From Propionibacteriaceae bacterium (GTDB lineage: Bacteria > Actinomycetota > Actinomycetes > Propionibacteriales > Propionibacteriaceae): a stretch of DNA of 64,000 nucleotides. The notes beneath the pieces are model-generated. The model was not told the DNA's origin and did no database searches. It worked only from the letters and a program-made list of their open reading frames with translations. The first letter of the stretch is position 1. Each line of letters opens with the position of its first letter. The DNA lies in assembly GCA_031285845.1 (NCBI GenBank), contig JAITVK010000018.1, positions 1 to 64,000 of the forward strand, given 5' to 3'. The position numbers and the translations under genes were made by a program. Shown one piece after another: positions 2,229 to 7,357 of this stretch.

Positions 2229-2301
2229 GCCCCCATAGCCCAACGGCAGAGGCAGTCGACTTAAAATCGACCGAGTGTCGGTTCGAATCCGACTGGGGGC
2301 A
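2229..2301 (+). tRNA. tRNA-Leu (anticodon UAA), short variable loop
   Basis: The cloverleaf folds cleanly. Acceptor GCCCCCA (2229-2235) pairs with TGGGGGC (2294-2300). The D stem is GCC/GGC (2238-2240/2251-2253), the anticodon stem GTCGA/TCGAC (2255-2259/2267-2271), and the T arm GTCGG-TTCGAAT-CCGAC (2277-2293). The anticodon is TAA (2262-2264), reading the rare Leu codon UUA. The discriminator base is A2301 and CCA is not encoded. The variable region is only 5 nt (CGAGT, 2272-2276), so the molecule is class I in shape, whereas bacterial tRNA-Leu is normally class II with a long variable arm. Its position after ppx is conserved in Actinobacteria. Confidence 0.92.
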
Positions 2302-2319
2302 CAGACGATTGAGCCGAGA

Positions 2320-2343
2320 GAACTGGAAGTTCACTTCCAGTTC
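2320..2343 (+). terminator. Hairpin downstream of tRNA-Leu
   Basis: Perfect inverted repeat: GAACTGGAAG (2320-2329) and CTTCCAGTTC (2334-2343) around a TTCA loop, 18 nt after the tRNA 3' end. There is no U-tract, so it may be a weak terminator or a tRNA 3'-processing structure. Confidence 0.5.
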
Positions 2344-2546
2344 CGAGGCGATTGAAGTCTGTTGGGTGTGGAGCATCACGACGCAGCGATCGGCAATGGA
2401 AGTTCAACGAAGAAGCCGGCTGGCGGGCTCATCATGGTTTCAGTGCGGTGGCTCGCCCGAATGAAACGCGATTTCAACGTCACTAAGTCATGAACTCAAT
2501 TATATATCGTATAGCACAGTAGTATTGCTGGCTCTTTATATTCACA

Positions 2547-2575
2547 TTGACTCTATTAAGAGGTCCAGATATGAT
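2547..2575 (+). promoter_or_regulatory. Strong sigma-70-type promoter
   Basis: TTGACT (2547-2552), a 17-nt spacer, and TATGAT (2570-2575). This is one mismatch from consensus in each box and the best promoter I see in the window. The predicted transcription start is near 2582, giving a leader of about 85 nt before the GTG at 2667. Confidence 0.75.
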
Positions 2576-2666
2576 CGTAGTGATGGCTGAACGGGGTGGT
2601 TCGGGCTCCGGGGTCATGTGGACAAAAGGCTTGTTCACTAGCAGTGATTTCGAAAGAGGGTTTGAG

Positions 2667-3011
2667 GTGAAGAAGAAGATCATCAGCGCGCTCATGGCAG
2701 TGGGGATGACACTGACGGGTGTTGCCGTCGGTTCGGCCCCGCAGGCAGTGGCCGACAATGGGCGGTGTGGGTCGTATGGCGACGGATTCGCAGTCAATGA
2801 CTACTGTGGCGGGCGGAAGGTCACCATCGCCGCCACCAAGGCGACCTGGTATTACAGCGCTGGCCAGGGTGGCATTGGCACCCGCGCGGGTAACTACGTC
2901 CACATTGGGCACACTTCTTATATTGGCGCGGACCCTGGCGACACCGGGGCCTACGGATGCCGATATCGCGAGGAGGTTGGCTTCCAGTATCGGGACTCGA
3001 GCTGTGCCTGA
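2667..3011 (+). CDS. Small secreted four-cysteine protein (unknown family)
   Basis: Predicted 114-aa precursor. The start is GTG 2667 with AAAGAGGG at 2653-2660 as ribosome binding site. A Sec signal peptide is clear: N-terminal KKK, a hydrophobic core IISALMAVGMTLTGVAV, and a likely cleavage after AVA in APQAVADNG. The mature part of about 83 aa is rich in Gly and Tyr and holds four cysteines (GRCGS, DYCGG, YGCRY, SSCA), so two disulfides are possible. I do not recognise the family. The size, signal peptide and neighbouring ABC system recall bacteriocin or secreted effector precursors, but the lactococcin-972 pattern is not evident. The strong promoter at 2547-2575 suggests high expression. 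Confidence 0.72.
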   Translation: MKKKIISALMAVGMTLTGVAVGSAPQAVADNGRCGSYGDGFAVNDYCGGRKVTIAATKATWYYSAGQGGIGTRAGNYVHIGHTSYIGADPGDTGAYGCRYREEVGFQYRDSSCA

Positions 3012-3039
3012 GGTCTGAGGGTCGAGAGAGGAAACGAAC

Positions 3040-3690
3040 ATGCGATCACATACTTCGTGGAGGCCTGGTTGGGGTGTGACTGTGCTGGCGGGCGTTGTTG
3101 TCGTTGTAATCATCAGCGTCCTGGTTCTCACAGGTGTGCCGGTGCCGGTTTCGGGCGGTGAACCCGAGTTCGCGGGCCCTTATGCCGCTGACCTGCGTGA
3201 AGTGTATGAGGATGAAAATGCTCCACAGATCGTGAAAACCGTTCTTGCTGATGGTGTCATCACTGAGGATGAGCTGGCCGAGGTTCGCTCGGCTCAGGTT
3301 GCATGTCTTGAGGCCGTTGGGGTGAGCGTCCTTCAGTTGGACGCTTCAGGGGAGTCGTATTTGGTTCTTCGCGACCCCGGTGAGCTGTCGCTGGAAGCTG
3401 GTGAGGCTCGGACCAACGAGTTGGCTGGCGAATGCTCGCGTCAAACTGGCTGGGTTGCCCTGGCGTGGCTATACACCGACATGACTCGAAACCCGGACAA
3501 CCTCAGCGGTGATGAACTGATGAGCGCCTGCATGGTGAGAGTGGGTTTGCGTCCCGAAGGTTACACGCCCGAGCGGTATATGGATGAGCTTCATGCTGGG
3601 GTGTTCATGCCATGGCTGGAGGATCAGACGACGCCTGAAGCCCAACTCTTCAGGGCATGTAACGACGATCCGCTTCACGCTAAACCGTGA
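3040..3690 (+). CDS. Membrane-anchored extracytoplasmic protein (unknown)
   Basis: Predicted 216-aa protein with a single N-terminal hydrophobic segment (about residues 11-32, VLAGVVVVVIISVLVLTGVP) and an acidic extracytoplasmic domain. No lipobox is visible, so it is an uncleaved anchor or a signal peptide. The domain carries cysteines at VACLEA, GECSRQ, SACMVR and RACNDD. The ATG at 3040 has GAGAGAGGAAA just upstream. It lies 28 nt after the secreted four-cysteine protein and is followed by a terminator-like hairpin (3702-3732), so the two form one short transcription unit. An immunity or partner role for the small secreted protein is possible but only inferred from position. Confidence 0.7.
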   Translation: MRSHTSWRPGWGVTVLAGVVVVVIISVLVLTGVPVPVSGGEPEFAGPYAADLREVYEDENAPQIVKTVLADGVITEDELAEVRSAQVACLEAVGVSVLQLDASGESYLVLRDPGELSLEAGEARTNELAGECSRQTGWVALAWLYTDMTRNPDNLSGDELMSACMVRVGLRPEGYTPERYMDELHAGVFMPWLEDQTTPEAQLFRACNDDPLHAKP

Positions 3691-3701
3691 ATCAGACCCC
3701 G

Positions 3702-3732
3702 CTGGTGGGGCGAGGGGCAGTCGCCCCACCAG
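3702..3732 (+). terminator. Hairpin between secreted-protein genes and ABC cassette
   Basis: CTGGTGGGGCGA (3702-3713) pairs with TCGCCCCACCAG (3721-3732) around a 7-nt loop, with GTCTCATTGGTTTCT after it. It is a 12-bp GC-rich stem 26 nt before the adaptor start. No promoter is evident between the hairpin and that start, so it may attenuate rather than end transcription. Confidence 0.65.
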
Positions 3733-3758
3733 GTCTCATTGGTTTCTGAGATGGGAGG

Positions 3759-4817
3759 ATGATGACATCCGCAAATGGGTCGCGTCTCAGTCGGATGATG
3801 GTGGCGGTCTTAGCCGGGGTGTGTCTGGTCGCGGTCGGGGCGGTGGCGAGTTGGGCGATCCTGGTCGACGATCCTCCGAGTTTGTTGGTCAAGACGGCTG
3901 TCGCCGGCTCGGCTCCGGTCGTTCAGCGTGAGTTCGATGACTCACAGTTGGTCAGTGTCGCCGTCACCCAAGGTTCGGCCCAAGCTCTAGTCGCCCCGGC
4001 CGGGGGCGTGGTGACCGCTTTCACCTGTGGAGTTGGCCAACCGGTGAGTTCTGGGCAGTCCGTGATGTCCATCGGTCCGATTCCGATCATCTCGTTGGCC
4101 ACCGGTGTTCCGCTGTGGCGTGACATCAAGTCGGGGGATCGCGGCGGCGACGTGACCGCGTTGGCCGCCGAGTTGACCCGGTTGGGCCGATTCGACGGTG
4201 ACGTCGAGGGGTCGGCCGGTCGCGGTCTTCTGGCCGCCGTACGTCAACTGCAGAAAGACCTCGGAACCCCTGAAGCCGACCTGGTCGACCAGGTGATCCC
4301 GATGTCGCAGCTCGCCTGGTTGCCCACCGATCAAGCCGTCGCGGCCAGTTGCGATGTGTCGGTCGGGTCGACGGTGACTCCGGGAACCACAGTGATCGGT
4401 TTCGACGCGCCGATCGTGGCCGCCACCGTCAGCGCTGACACTACGCGTTTCGCCCCTGGCGACCGTACGCTGATCGTCGACGGCCACCGGCTGGCTGTCG
4501 GCCCCGATGGGGCGATCACCGATCCCGACGCTCTGACTCAATTGTCCGCTTCGCCGTCGGTGACGAACGCTCGCCGAGCGGGAGTCTTGAACTCGTTGCA
4601 CGCCCATTACCCGCTGGCCACCCCGATGACAGTGTCGGTGATTCCACCGGTCTCGATCCGTCCGATCGCGAAAGGGCGTGGTTGCGTTGTGGCTGCCGAC
4701 CAGGCGTTGCCCGTCACGATCGTCGCCTCGGAGTTGGGCCAATCCTTCGTCACCTTCGACGGGCCCGCGCCCCAATCCGTACGCCTGGACCCACCATCGG
4801 ATCTGACATGTTCATGA
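3759..4817 (+). CDS. Adaptor-like protein with peptidoglycan-binding domain (ABC efflux partner)
   Basis: A 352-aa envelope protein with one N-terminal membrane segment (about residues 14-35). A short lipoyl/biotinyl-like hairpin (APAGGVVTAFTCGVGQPVSS, about 78-97) resembles that of HlyD/MacA adaptors. It is followed by a PG_binding_1-type repeat (SGDRGGDVTALAAELTRLGRF and on, about 126-170). Further beta-rich sequence leads to the C-terminus. The next two genes encode a MacB-like ATPase and permease, so this is most likely the periplasm-facing adaptor of that system, tethered to the wall by the PG-binding domain. Start: ATG 3759 or the in-frame ATG 3762, since GGAGG abuts 3759. Its 3' end overlaps the ATPase gene. 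Confidence 0.8.
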   Translation: MMTSANGSRLSRMMVAVLAGVCLVAVGAVASWAILVDDPPSLLVKTAVAGSAPVVQREFDDSQLVSVAVTQGSAQALVAPAGGVVTAFTCGVGQPVSSGQSVMSIGPIPIISLATGVPLWRDIKSGDRGGDVTALAAELTRLGRFDGDVEGSAGRGLLAAVRQLQKDLGTPEADLVDQVIPMSQLAWLPTDQAVAASCDVSVGSTVTPGTTVIGFDAPIVAATVSADTTRFAPGDRTLIVDGHRLAVGPDGAITDPDALTQLSASPSVTNARRAGVLNSLHAHYPLATPMTVSVIPPVSIRPIAKGRGCVVAADQALPVTIVASELGQSFVTFDGPAPQSVRLDPPSDLTCS

Positions 4818-5680
4818 ACCTTCGAGATCGCGAGCCTGGCCGCGACGCCGCGGTCCGCGGTGGCGGCCCAGTGGAGGTCAAGCTCGCCCACGAGCGCCTC
4901 GCCATGCATGGAGAAAGCGACCCGGGCCTGGCTCCGATCCCGGTTGGGCCGACGGTCGAAGCGATTGATCTAGGCCACGAGTTCGTGGCCGGGCATCGGC
5001 TATTCGACCATCGATCGTTCATCTTGAGAACCAACGCGTTGTACGCTGTGACCGGGCCATCGGGATCGGGCAAATCGACCCTGCTGTCGATTCTCGCCGG
5101 ATGGCTGACACCCACCTTGGGCCGTGTTATTCGACGCGGGGTGGATCCTGTGCGCTGGGTGTTCCAAAACCCTCACGGGGTTCCTCGACGTTCGACGCTG
5201 GATCATGTGGCTGTCGGCTTCATCGCCCAGGGCTATCGTCGCGCCGAAGCCGATCGGGCGGCCCGTGACCTGTTGGAGCGGTTCAGCTTGGGGCAGGCGG
5301 CCGATTCGCCCTTCGCCGCGTTGTCTGGAGGCGAAGCGCAGCGAGTGATGCTGGCCAGAGGTTTGGCGTCGAATCCGGGGCTGCTGTTGGTCGACGAGCC
5401 AACCGCTCAACTGGATCGGTCGGCCGCCGACGAAGTCAATCGGACGCTGGTGTCCCTGATCGGGTCAAACATCATCGTGGTGGTCGCCACCCACGACCTC
5501 CAAACTCGACAAGCTTGCACCCACGTGATCGACCTGGCCGAGCCGTCGACCCCGTCGCCGGACTCCGACCGCCCTCGCCACGGCTACCCCAATGAGTTCG
5601 AAGAACTGGGGTCGTCCGCCGAGGCGGTCCCGCCGAGCCACAGTGACCCGAAGCCGACGCCACCCCAAGGCCGATCATGA
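4808..5680 (+). CDS. ABC transporter ATP-binding protein (LolD/MacB type)
   Basis: About 290-aa ATPase. Walker A is GPSGSGKST, the signature LSGGEAQRVMLARGLA, and Walker B LLLVDEPTAQLD followed by the H-loop VVVATHD. The order and spacing fit the LolD/MacB subfamily, which drives mechanotransmission rather than substrate translocation through the membrane. It has extra polar extensions at both ends, about 50 aa N-terminal and 55 aa C-terminal and proline-rich. The start is uncertain: ATG 4808 or ATG 4814 (the latter overlaps the adaptor stop as ATGA), and neither has a clear SD. The 3' end overlaps the permease start by 4 nt. Confidence 0.88.
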   Translation: MFMNLRDREPGRDAAVRGGGPVEVKLAHERLAMHGESDPGLAPIPVGPTVEAIDLGHEFVAGHRLFDHRSFILRTNALYAVTGPSGSGKSTLLSILAGWLTPTLGRVIRRGVDPVRWVFQNPHGVPRRSTLDHVAVGFIAQGYRRAEADRAARDLLERFSLGQAADSPFAALSGGEAQRVMLARGLASNPGLLLVDEPTAQLDRSAADEVNRTLVSLIGSNIIVVVATHDLQTRQACTHVIDLAEPSTPSPDSDRPRHGYPNEFEELGSSAEAVPPSHSDPKPTPPQGRS

Positions 5681-6747
5681 ACCCCCGCTGGCGTGAAGCC
5701 CTGCGTGAAGCGGGTCGAAATCTGGTCAGCGGGACTACCCATGTCTGGCGCTGGACGCTCGTGTTGGCGCTGATCTTGGGTGGGCTGGCCTGGTTGGAGA
5801 CCTCCACCATTCGTACGGTGGTGAACAACGCGGCCGATCATGTGTCGCGTGGCGGCGCGACCTGGGTGCTGCAGGCGACTGGCGGAATCTGGGGGACTTC
5901 CTGCGATCAGTTGGCGAAAGCCGATGGTGTTTTGGCCTCGGGGGCGCTGCGGGTCGAAGACGAGAGCCTGACCGCGATCGTGCTGCCGCGCGGCCCGGTG
6001 CCGGTGAAGTCGGTGACACCTGGTTTCCTCTCTTTGATCGGTGCCAGCGATGCGACGGGTTTGGTGGTCTCCGACCTGGTGGCGAACCGGCTGTCCATGA
6101 CAACTCCCGCGCAGTTGTCCACCACCACTGGCGTGATCGAGGTGACCGGCCACTATCCGTACCCGGAGGATGGCCGTCGTCCCGGTCTGGGTTTCGCCGC
6201 GCTGGCCCCCGTCCCTGGTGACCAGGCGTTCGATGAGTGTTGGCTGACGGTGTGGCCGAGCGATGACCAGATCACCGGATTGGCCTATCTGGCGCTGATC
6301 GGTGGCGGGTCGTCGGCCGCGTCGGAGGCGAAACTGGCGCAGATGAATCCGCGTTTCTCCACCAGCCTCGACACCACCAGCCAGTACGAGTCCCGCTTGA
6401 CCAGGTGGTCGGGTGTGGCCGCGGCCTCGGCTGGAATCCTGCTCGGATTCGCCGCCTGTTGGCAGCGACGATTGGAGGTCGCCAGTTCGATCCACGTCGG
6501 GTTGCCGCGCAGTTTCCTTCTGATCCGTCTCGAAGCCGAGGCCGCGGTGTGGGCGCTGGCCGCCGGTCTGCTGGCCGCTCCCATGATCGTGGTCGGATCA
6601 TGGTCGGCGGCCTCGGATCTGCGGGCGGTGCAGTGGGCCGGAGCACGGGTGTTGCTGGCCGGTGTGGCCGGTCCGCTGCTGGGGACTTTGGTCGCGTGGA
6701 CCGGGATTCGCCAGAGGCAGTTGTTCGCATTGTTCAAGACTCGCTGA
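5677..6747 (+). CDS. MacB/FtsX-like permease subunit
   Basis: A 356-aa membrane protein with the FtsX/MacB layout. There is one membrane segment near residues 24-45 and a large extracytoplasmic domain (about 46-240). Three closely spaced membrane segments follow (about 247-265, 287-307 and 317-340). The start ATG 5677 overlaps the ATPase stop (ATGA). Together with the adaptor and ATPase it makes a complete tripartite-like cassette. Substrate is unknown; the upstream secreted protein makes peptide export or self-protection plausible. No motif beyond topology supports the family call, hence the moderate confidence on function. Confidence 0.8.
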   Translation: MNPRWREALREAGRNLVSGTTHVWRWTLVLALILGGLAWLETSTIRTVVNNAADHVSRGGATWVLQATGGIWGTSCDQLAKADGVLASGALRVEDESLTAIVLPRGPVPVKSVTPGFLSLIGASDATGLVVSDLVANRLSMTTPAQLSTTTGVIEVTGHYPYPEDGRRPGLGFAALAPVPGDQAFDECWLTVWPSDDQITGLAYLALIGGGSSAASEAKLAQMNPRFSTSLDTTSQYESRLTRWSGVAAASAGILLGFAACWQRRLEVASSIHVGLPRSFLLIRLEAEAAVWALAAGLLAAPMIVVGSWSAASDLRAVQWAGARVLLAGVAGPLLGTLVAWTGIRQRQLFALFKTR

Positions 6748-6823
6748 GTCAGACGGCGCCCGCGATGGACAGGGCGGCGTACGGCATCCTGCTTGGTGAA
6801 CTGGACGTGCACGATCGGTTCTA

Positions 6824-6829
6824 TACAAT
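6824..6829 (+). promoter_or_regulatory. Leaderless -10 element
   Basis: TACAAT, 6 nt before ATG 6836; transcription is expected to start at the start codon. Confidence 0.6.
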
Positions 6830-6835
6830 GAAGCC

Positions 6836-7357
6836 ATGCCTGAGCAACTCGTCGTCGGCTTCAATCCGATGTCCGCCGCCAACAAGGTGGCGTACTTCGT
6901 GCGCCAGATTCGCTCACGGCTGGTGTGGCTGATCATCGCGGCGGTCATCTGTGTGTGGATCTGGCTGTGGCAGCGCCAGACGATGAGCGCTCAGAACGTG
7001 GGTTTCCTGTTCGGTGTGGGGATGGCCTATTCGCTGGTGTGGCTGGTGATCGCCGTGGTGAATTGGCGTCGGGCGAAGAAGACGTTGGCGTCGATCACCC
7101 CCGATGTGGCGATGGCGGTGAGTCGATGGGGACTGTGGATTCAGGGCGCGTCGGTGCCGTGGTCGGATGTCTCGCGAGTGGCGATCGCTCCTGGGCGGTT
7201 CGGTGGGTCGCCGACGCTGACGGTGGCGCGGGTCTCGGGGCCGGTGTCGAGCATCTCGTTGGCCGTATTGGACATGATGCCTGGCTCGATCGACGCCGCG
7301 ATCCGAGCCTATTCCGGCGGCCAGCAGTGGATCGACACCTCGAAACTGGGCAACTGA
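6836..7357 (+). CDS. Two-TM membrane protein with PH-like C-terminal region
   Basis: A 173-aa protein of unknown function. Two membrane segments (about residues 31-47 and 58-76) are followed by a cytoplasmic domain. Its pattern (SRWGLWIQGASVPWSDVSRV, then a hydrophobic strand and LTVAR) resembles YcxB/bPH-type domains, in which a short beta hairpin contains W-S-D-V. No SD precedes the ATG. Instead TACAAT lies exactly 6 nt upstream, matching other leaderless genes here. It follows the ABC cassette by 88 nt but probably has its own promoter. Confidence 0.72.
   Translation: MPEQLVVGFNPMSAANKVAYFVRQIRSRLVWLIIAAVICVWIWLWQRQTMSAQNVGFLFGVGMAYSLVWLVIAVVNWRRAKKTLASITPDVAMAVSRWGLWIQGASVPWSDVSRVAIAPGRFGGSPTLTVARVSGPVSSISLAVLDMMPGSIDAAIRAYSGGQQWIDTSKLGN

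Follow-up and report, generated by a model that had tools for sequence, protein, structure and literature searches.

Lactococcin 972 (Lcn972) is a Sec-secreted bacteriocin with lipid II as its target (PMC11796350), and its published loci are, as far as the accessible text of the reports goes, small scbABC/lcl-type clusters (PMC11796350, PMC4289311), in none of which the functions of the B and C genes have been verified experimentally (PMC11796350). Lcn972-like precursors have already been published from Actinobacteria (PMC4289311, PMC5719810); in Brevibacterium aurantiacum, by the available description, an Lcn972-related gene stands in an operon with two transmembrane (TM) proteins and an ATP-binding cassette (ABC) ATPase, on an island at a tRNA gene (PMC5719810). 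According to the accessible part of a review, propionicin T1 (thoeniicin 447) of Propionibacterium thoenii is a 65-residue bacteriocin made as a 96-residue Sec prepeptide from pctA, with an ABC gene, orf2, 68 nt downstream, for which immunity has been proposed (PMC5756557). Here we analysed a window of 64,000 nucleotides (contig JAITVK010000018.1) from a 2.68 Mb draft genome of a Propionibacteriaceae bacterium, in which five same-strand genes at 2667–6747 form an islet: a small Sec-secreted protein (SEC), an anchored extracytoplasmic protein with four cysteines (P2), a MacA-like adaptor (ADP), an ABC ATPase (ATP) and a MacB-like permease (PRM), in that order on the plus strand. Comparison with related loci indicates that this islet probably represents a type of bacteriocin locus that extends across Actinobacteria and in which an exchangeable SEC-P2 toxin-immunity pair would be joined to a shared, wall-binding MacAB-type self-protection machine.

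The plan resembles that of the known systems, and the gene content sets the islet apart from them. Lcn972-family loci (e.g., Lcn972 and streptococcin B) likewise have a Sec-secreted precursor of ~100 residues followed by immunity/ABC genes; relative to the scbABC/lcl-type clusters as described in the accessible reports, however, the window islet additionally encodes P2, an adaptor with a peptidoglycan-binding domain and a MacB-like permease. The pctA-orf2 locus, likened here by description, follows the same plan of a small Sec-secreted bacteriocin with an ABC gene downstream, yet the accessible text of the review names only orf2 after pctA (PMC5756557), whereas four genes follow SEC here. The Brevibacterium aurantiacum operon, also compared by description, lies at a tRNA-Val site, and in the available account no P2-like gene and no peptidoglycan-binding domain are mentioned (PMC5719810). 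A search of the open-access literature, with subscription papers outside its reach, found no description of the P2-adaptor-ATPase-permease cassette or of its non-Lcn972 cargo, as we call the small proteins encoded before P2.

The sequence-only reading of this DNA had listed the same five genes with the last three overlapping, and both points hold, the overlaps lying at 4808–4817 (ADP/ATP) and 5677–5680 (ATP/PRM). The start that it gave, 2547, is that of a −35-like box, the first gene beginning at 2667, and its single strong promoter did not stand up: the promoter-like TTGACT-17-TATGAT (2547–2575, plus strand) scores 10/12, no better than chance (2 sites found versus 1.1 ± 0.9 expected), and the DNA upstream of the homologous locus shows no likeness to that of the window. 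SEC (2667–3011, 114 residues), the putative bacteriocin, starts at GTG 2667, preceded by AGAGGG (2655–2660), and a homologue with 47% identity in a congeneric genome (L089) starts at the equivalent residue. As read from the sequence, the signal peptide (2667–2753) has an n-region KKK, a hydrophobic core and AVA, as does the L089 homologue by a script, and the mature part (2754–3008) has ~85 residues, four Cys and an isoelectric point (pI) of 6.9; the earlier description of a small signal-peptide protein with four cysteines is borne out, save for its mature length of 83 residues. A match of SEC to a known non-toxin family had been named as the finding that would overturn a bacteriocin assignment, and none appeared, with zero matches in Pfam, NCBIfam and PADLOC.

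To place the islet among its relatives, we scanned contigs with the ATPase motif and obtained 219 relatives, the best 80 of which, all named actinobacterial loci, were analysed with ADP, PRM and P2 models built from family loci. ADP and PRM are present in 80/80 of these best loci and P2 in 75/80. Among the five exceptions, L123, L152 and L168 have <320 bases before ADP, and L158 and L161 have more. The hosts include Bifidobacterium, Cellulomonas, Oerskovia, Mycetocola, Microbacterium, Leucobacter, Actinoplanes and others, and the best named match of the window ATPase segment comes from a Propionibacteriaceae metagenome-assembled genome (L117). Within the bacterial family, PRM homologues occur in 30 of 197 sampled genomes, with four in the window's own genome, and a phylum-wide survey in which five candidates per genome were scored found at least 3 of 396 genomes positive, the window's own among them. 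A search for plasmid carriage of PRM or ADP gave no match.

A small Sec-secreted open reading frame (ORF) that satisfies a strict rule (80–130 residues, a Sec signal peptide, a ribosome-binding-site-like motif and a mature part without TM segments) lies immediately upstream of P2 in 42 of the 72 loci with room for one. Of the other genes of ≥150 residues there, 5 of 338 have such an ORF before them, and antisense windows gave 0 of 84. This strict test supersedes an earlier loose chance control (79/147 versus 404/2000 random positions and 14/142 antisense). The window itself has the defining arrangement, SEC directly before P2 and then ADP-ATP-PRM. The sequence-only reading had cautioned that the link would be chance if homologues of the small protein were never near this ABC cassette; the L089 homologue indeed has no ABC genes but stands beside P2, and small Sec-secreted ORFs of other sequence precede P2 in those 42 cassette loci. 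As judged from these sequences, such cassettes make up a broad family whose cargo is exchangeable, a point absent from the earlier interpretation.

The small protein has a constant partner in P2 (3040–3690), the putative cognate immunity protein. The earlier account of an anchored extracytoplasmic protein with cysteines agrees with the family, in which the four Cys are invariant or nearly so, and a lipobox is present in 72 of 78 P2 copies. The structure model of P2 is confident (predicted local distance difference test, pLDDT, 96.7), and it has no counterpart in the PDB by profile, Foldseek (best E 0.31) or VIA (best Z 4.1), which does not prove a new fold. P2 is also the best candidate for the immunity protein; the sequence-only reading had overlooked both this role and the constant partnership. 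Arrays of three to four P2 genes also occur beside one cassette (L117, L148, L153 and L178), as would be expected of collected immunity genes.

SEC and P2 behave as one unit. In L089, the SEC homologue and P2 stand together with ADP and PRM absent within 13 kb, and a stand-alone SEC-P2 pair is found in the window's own genome (L208:3820-4950), with ADP and PRM absent in 9 kb. In another family of the phylum (L209:4006-12273), a complete SEC-P2-ADP-ATP-PRM cassette has behind it two additional SEC-P2 pairs and extra copies of P2, and in L119, L121 and L141 the pair is relocated behind PRM. The synonymous divergence (dS) between L119 and L121 is 0.04 for ADP, 0.09 for ATP, 0.55 for PRM, 0.47 for the SEC signal peptide and 1.27 for both P2 and mature SEC; the value of 1.27 against 0.04 for ADP shows that SEC-P2 was replaced as a block in these two loci. 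No such replacement is seen in L118/L120 or in L164/L174. Across 990 pairs of 45 loci, with relatedness partly controlled, loci that share a SEC cluster have the higher P2 identity after correction for that of the transporters (mean residual +0.049, 83 pairs), a value that 0 of 2000 label shuffles reached. That SEC-P2 occurs alone and in tandem, moves jointly and is swapped as a block marks it as a unit of the kind expected of toxin-immunity modules.

The cargo is diverse. BLAST clustering of 46 mature sequences (45 from named loci and that of the window) gives 25 clusters at E ≤ 1e-3, with sizes of 12, 4, 4, 3, 2 and 2 plus 19 singletons, the window SEC being one of the latter, and 18 clusters at E ≤ 0.01; P2, ADP and PRM of the same loci form one cluster each. 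The cluster of 12 is lactococcin-972-like: 11 of 59 collected small proteins match PF09683 (Lactococcin_972; best E 3.7e-14) and 11 match TIGR01653. The bacteriocin reading gains most from this observation, because true lactococcin-972-family precursors hold the same slot before the same genes in other Actinobacteria. On a tree of 45 concatenated cassettes, built by a quick method with no bootstrap, Lcn972-type (12) and other cargo (33) are separated by 5 changes, at least 2 of them forced by starred branches; the Lcn972 label is clustered (shuffled mean ~10.8 changes) and does not form one clade, since, for example, L194 (Lcn972) joins L176 (other) at a starred branch (98*). As separate observations, one of the 59 cargo proteins matches NCBIfam JUQZ (E 0.0021; this member was not recognised among the ten rescanned), and a second distinct cargo family, from Nocardiopsis, Thermomonospora and Actinoplanes (L177, L183, L190 and L193), has no NCBIfam match above cut-off.

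Lcn972 and other cargo thus interchange on one cassette, and the alternative that survives best, although unlikely, is that SEC is a lactococcin-972 homologue diverged past sequence recognition, which would keep that family's beta-sandwich fold and its target, lipid II. SEC agrees with the family in slot, size and secretion route, and its AlphaFold model is all-beta, albeit too poor for use (pLDDT 51.6). Against this, SEC has four Cys, compared with 0–2 in Lcn972-type sequences, and matches neither PF09683 nor TIGR01653 at E ≤ 0.1 or E ≤ 1, whereas the same scans at E ≤ 0.1 recover the 11 of 59 cargo proteins. A hidden resemblance was not found either: hhalign-type profile comparison of SEC with the Lcn972 group gave a score of 9.5 versus a shuffled median of 9.3, and a hidden Markov model (HMM) search among 13800 decoys did not link the two. 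Because the defining models are unmatched, we did not file SEC under Lcn972 and rejected it as a member of that family, in line with the sequence-only reading, which had seen that the precursor lacks the family's pattern. Two other cargo groups, C2 (14.5) and Act (15.6), beat all 40 shuffles against Lcn972 by hhalign and were likewise set aside, the result not being borne out by HMM against decoys.

The three remaining genes are consistent with a MacAB-type arrangement that bears a wall-binding domain, as had been proposed. In ADP (3759–4817), a peptidoglycan-binding domain (~4140–4271) lies between two lipoyl-like halves, at the position taken by the helical hairpin in MacA. The adaptor with a lipoyl-like hairpin and a peptidoglycan-binding domain of the sequence-only reading is recovered in both features, with domain scores below cut-off or weak: PG_binding_1 (E 3.3e-4) and HlyD_3 (E 0.0075) both fall short of the Pfam cut-off, and the flanking stretches resemble, all weakly, MacA/ZneB-type regions before the domain and E2 lipoyl domains after it. 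Against the PDB, the ADP family profile finds peptidoglycan-binding domains plus MacA/ZneB lipoyl regions, with weak but consistent values for MacA 4dk0 (E 0.025) and ZneB 3lnn (E 0.022). ATP (4808–5680; family signature WVFQNPHG) gives a clear ABC_tran match (E 9.8e-24), and its best models include FtsE, LolD and L_ocin_972_ABC, all below curated cut-offs (103 bits against TIGR03608, cut-off 254.85); it is LolD/FtsE-like, in agreement with the LolD/MacB-type ATPase named earlier. PRM (5677–6747) has no convincing Pfam or NCBIfam model, with 0 NCBIfam matches at E ≤ 1; its hydrophobicity, 1+3 TM segments, fits MacB/FtsX, and its family profile reaches the TM domain of MacB 5gko at E 0.04, in weak agreement with the FtsX/MacB-like permease named earlier. 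The immunity protein that partners Lcn972 has 7 TM segments (TIGR01654); PRM, with ~4 TM segments and zero NCBIfam matches, is not such a protein. MacAB-type efflux systems have an adaptor with lipoyl halves, a MacB/FtsX-type permease and a LolD-like ATPase, of which the window genes are probable counterparts; ATPase and permease are separate proteins in the window. Anti-phage defence was considered and rejected, PADLOC matching only the generic ATPase.

Such a machine admits a second alternative, namely that SEC is a bacteriocin whereas ADP-ATP-PRM serves as a dedicated release or maturation machine, for membrane extraction and passage through the wall, P2 acting as chaperone in secretion. 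MacAB/LolCDE-type machines do extract membrane-bound substrates, and the wall-binding domain of the adaptor and the lipid anchor of P2 in most loci would suit this role. The proposal is doubtful nonetheless: SEC has a normal Sec signal peptide, the SEC-P2 pairs of L089 and L208 lack adaptor and permease genes within the 13 kb and 9 kb covered, and in 6 of 52 cassettes (L063, L084, L085, L088, L094 and L095) adaptor and permease are adjacent with no ATPase gene between them, although in the latter two cases the missing genes might be supplied from another place in the genome.

Under the preferred reading of a toxin-immunity pair with a self-protection machine, SEC would be exported by Sec, cleaved by signal peptidase and folded outside the cell, to act as a small, probably disulfide-bonded, narrow-spectrum bacteriocin that inhibits close relatives. 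Lantibiotic producers have two layers of self-protection, an anchored immunity protein (LanI) and an ABC pump (LanFEG). P2, on the outer membrane face, may bind its own SEC and protect the producer in a LanI-like role, and ADP-ATP-PRM, a MacAB-type pump whose adaptor would be held in the cell wall via its peptidoglycan-binding domain, may strip the bacteriocin from the membrane or from cell-wall precursors in a LanFEG-like role. SEC-P2 would then be the specific, exchangeable module and the ABC trio the general part. The likeness to LanI and LanFEG is a functional analogy only, P2 matching no solved structure in sequence or fold. What the genomes show directly is the gene content with its conservation and linkage, the exchange of SEC-P2 and the insertion site; toxicity, immunity, direction of transport, disulfides and the target we infer from the sequences.

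Several observations weigh against this reading. SEC is not cationic (pI 6.9, compared with a median of 9.1 for the 46 mature sequences), shows no detectable similarity to the other 45 and has L089 as its sole close homologue; its profile comparison with Lcn972 stays at shuffle level and its structure model is unusable. P2 is a lipoprotein in most relatives, and the window copy lacks the lipobox Cys. The strict rule for SEC was set only after the loci had been seen, with controls judged by the same rule; by it, 30 of 72 loci lack SEC, and, with six of these (L122, L148, L177, L186, L188 and L192) carrying SEC on relaxed or manual reading, 24 have no recognised SEC at all. In the pairs compared, dN/dS (nonsynonymous to synonymous divergence) is <1 everywhere, with no sign of positive selection. 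Finally, a self-contained pump needs the ATPase that six cassettes lack, among them one (L063) in the window's own genome; these may borrow an ATPase from another cassette.

A third alternative, improbable in our judgement, holds that SEC is no toxin and instead serves as some other secreted factor or as a peptide for signalling or envelope stress, which P2 and the ABC system would sense. The neutral pI of SEC would suit such a role, and some BceAB-type ABC systems do sense peptides, but the cargo diversity, the Lcn972 bacteriocins in the same slot, the tandem and stand-alone SEC-P2 pairs and the absence of a regulator gene from the five-gene islet all speak against it. That a generic efflux cassette merely lies beside a random secreted protein is highly improbable, for although no small secreted ORF was recognised in 24 of 72 loci, the strict rule separates the slot from its controls, P2 is present in nearly all loci and SEC and P2 move jointly.

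Taken together, the comparisons support the view that SEC represents a new cargo family, within a putative bacteriocin cassette that is both shared and exchangeable, and thereby widen the earlier interpretation of a new Sec-secreted peptide with dedicated immunity or processing, akin to but outside the lactococcin-972 type, which is itself strengthened by the Lcn972 precursors in the same slot. A broader claim, only narrowly favoured, is that Actinobacteria have a general bacteriocin platform in common. Its small secreted toxins, of which Lcn972 is one, would be many and either unrelated or diverged past recognition; each would be paired with an immunity protein from a new class of 4-Cys lipoproteins and served by a wall-anchored MacAB-like machine, and the window SEC would found a new toxin family. 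If so, the P2-ADP-ATP-PRM signature would provide a handle for many unannotated actinobacterial bacteriocins (219 ATPase-motif relatives in one scan), 48 of the 59 collected precursors falling outside the Lactococcin_972 model, and the lactococcin-972 class would gain a testable immunity protein. A further question would then be how a single transporter can guard against toxins that are unrelated to one another.

The islet lies between tRNA-Leu(TAA) (2229–2302, plus strand, ARAGORN) and a membrane-protein gene at 6836. In G145 (L214), the order ftsB-DUF501-ppx-tRNA-Leu is followed by 23 bp (L214:3345-3367) and then by the counterpart of the gene at 6836, the site being empty; in G141 (L211:826-6300), the same site holds ~5.4 kb of other small genes, and in the window (2303–6835) it is occupied by the cassette. 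An empty site in one genome and other genes in another mark the cassette as a variable, mobile islet that follows a tRNA gene; neither tRNA attachment nor flanking repeats were found at the islet. The gene at the right border (6836–7357, plus strand), outside the cassette, lies next to fructose-bisphosphate aldolase and encodes a conserved 173-residue membrane protein; sequence comparison finds it in 16 of the 19 genomes of the genus.

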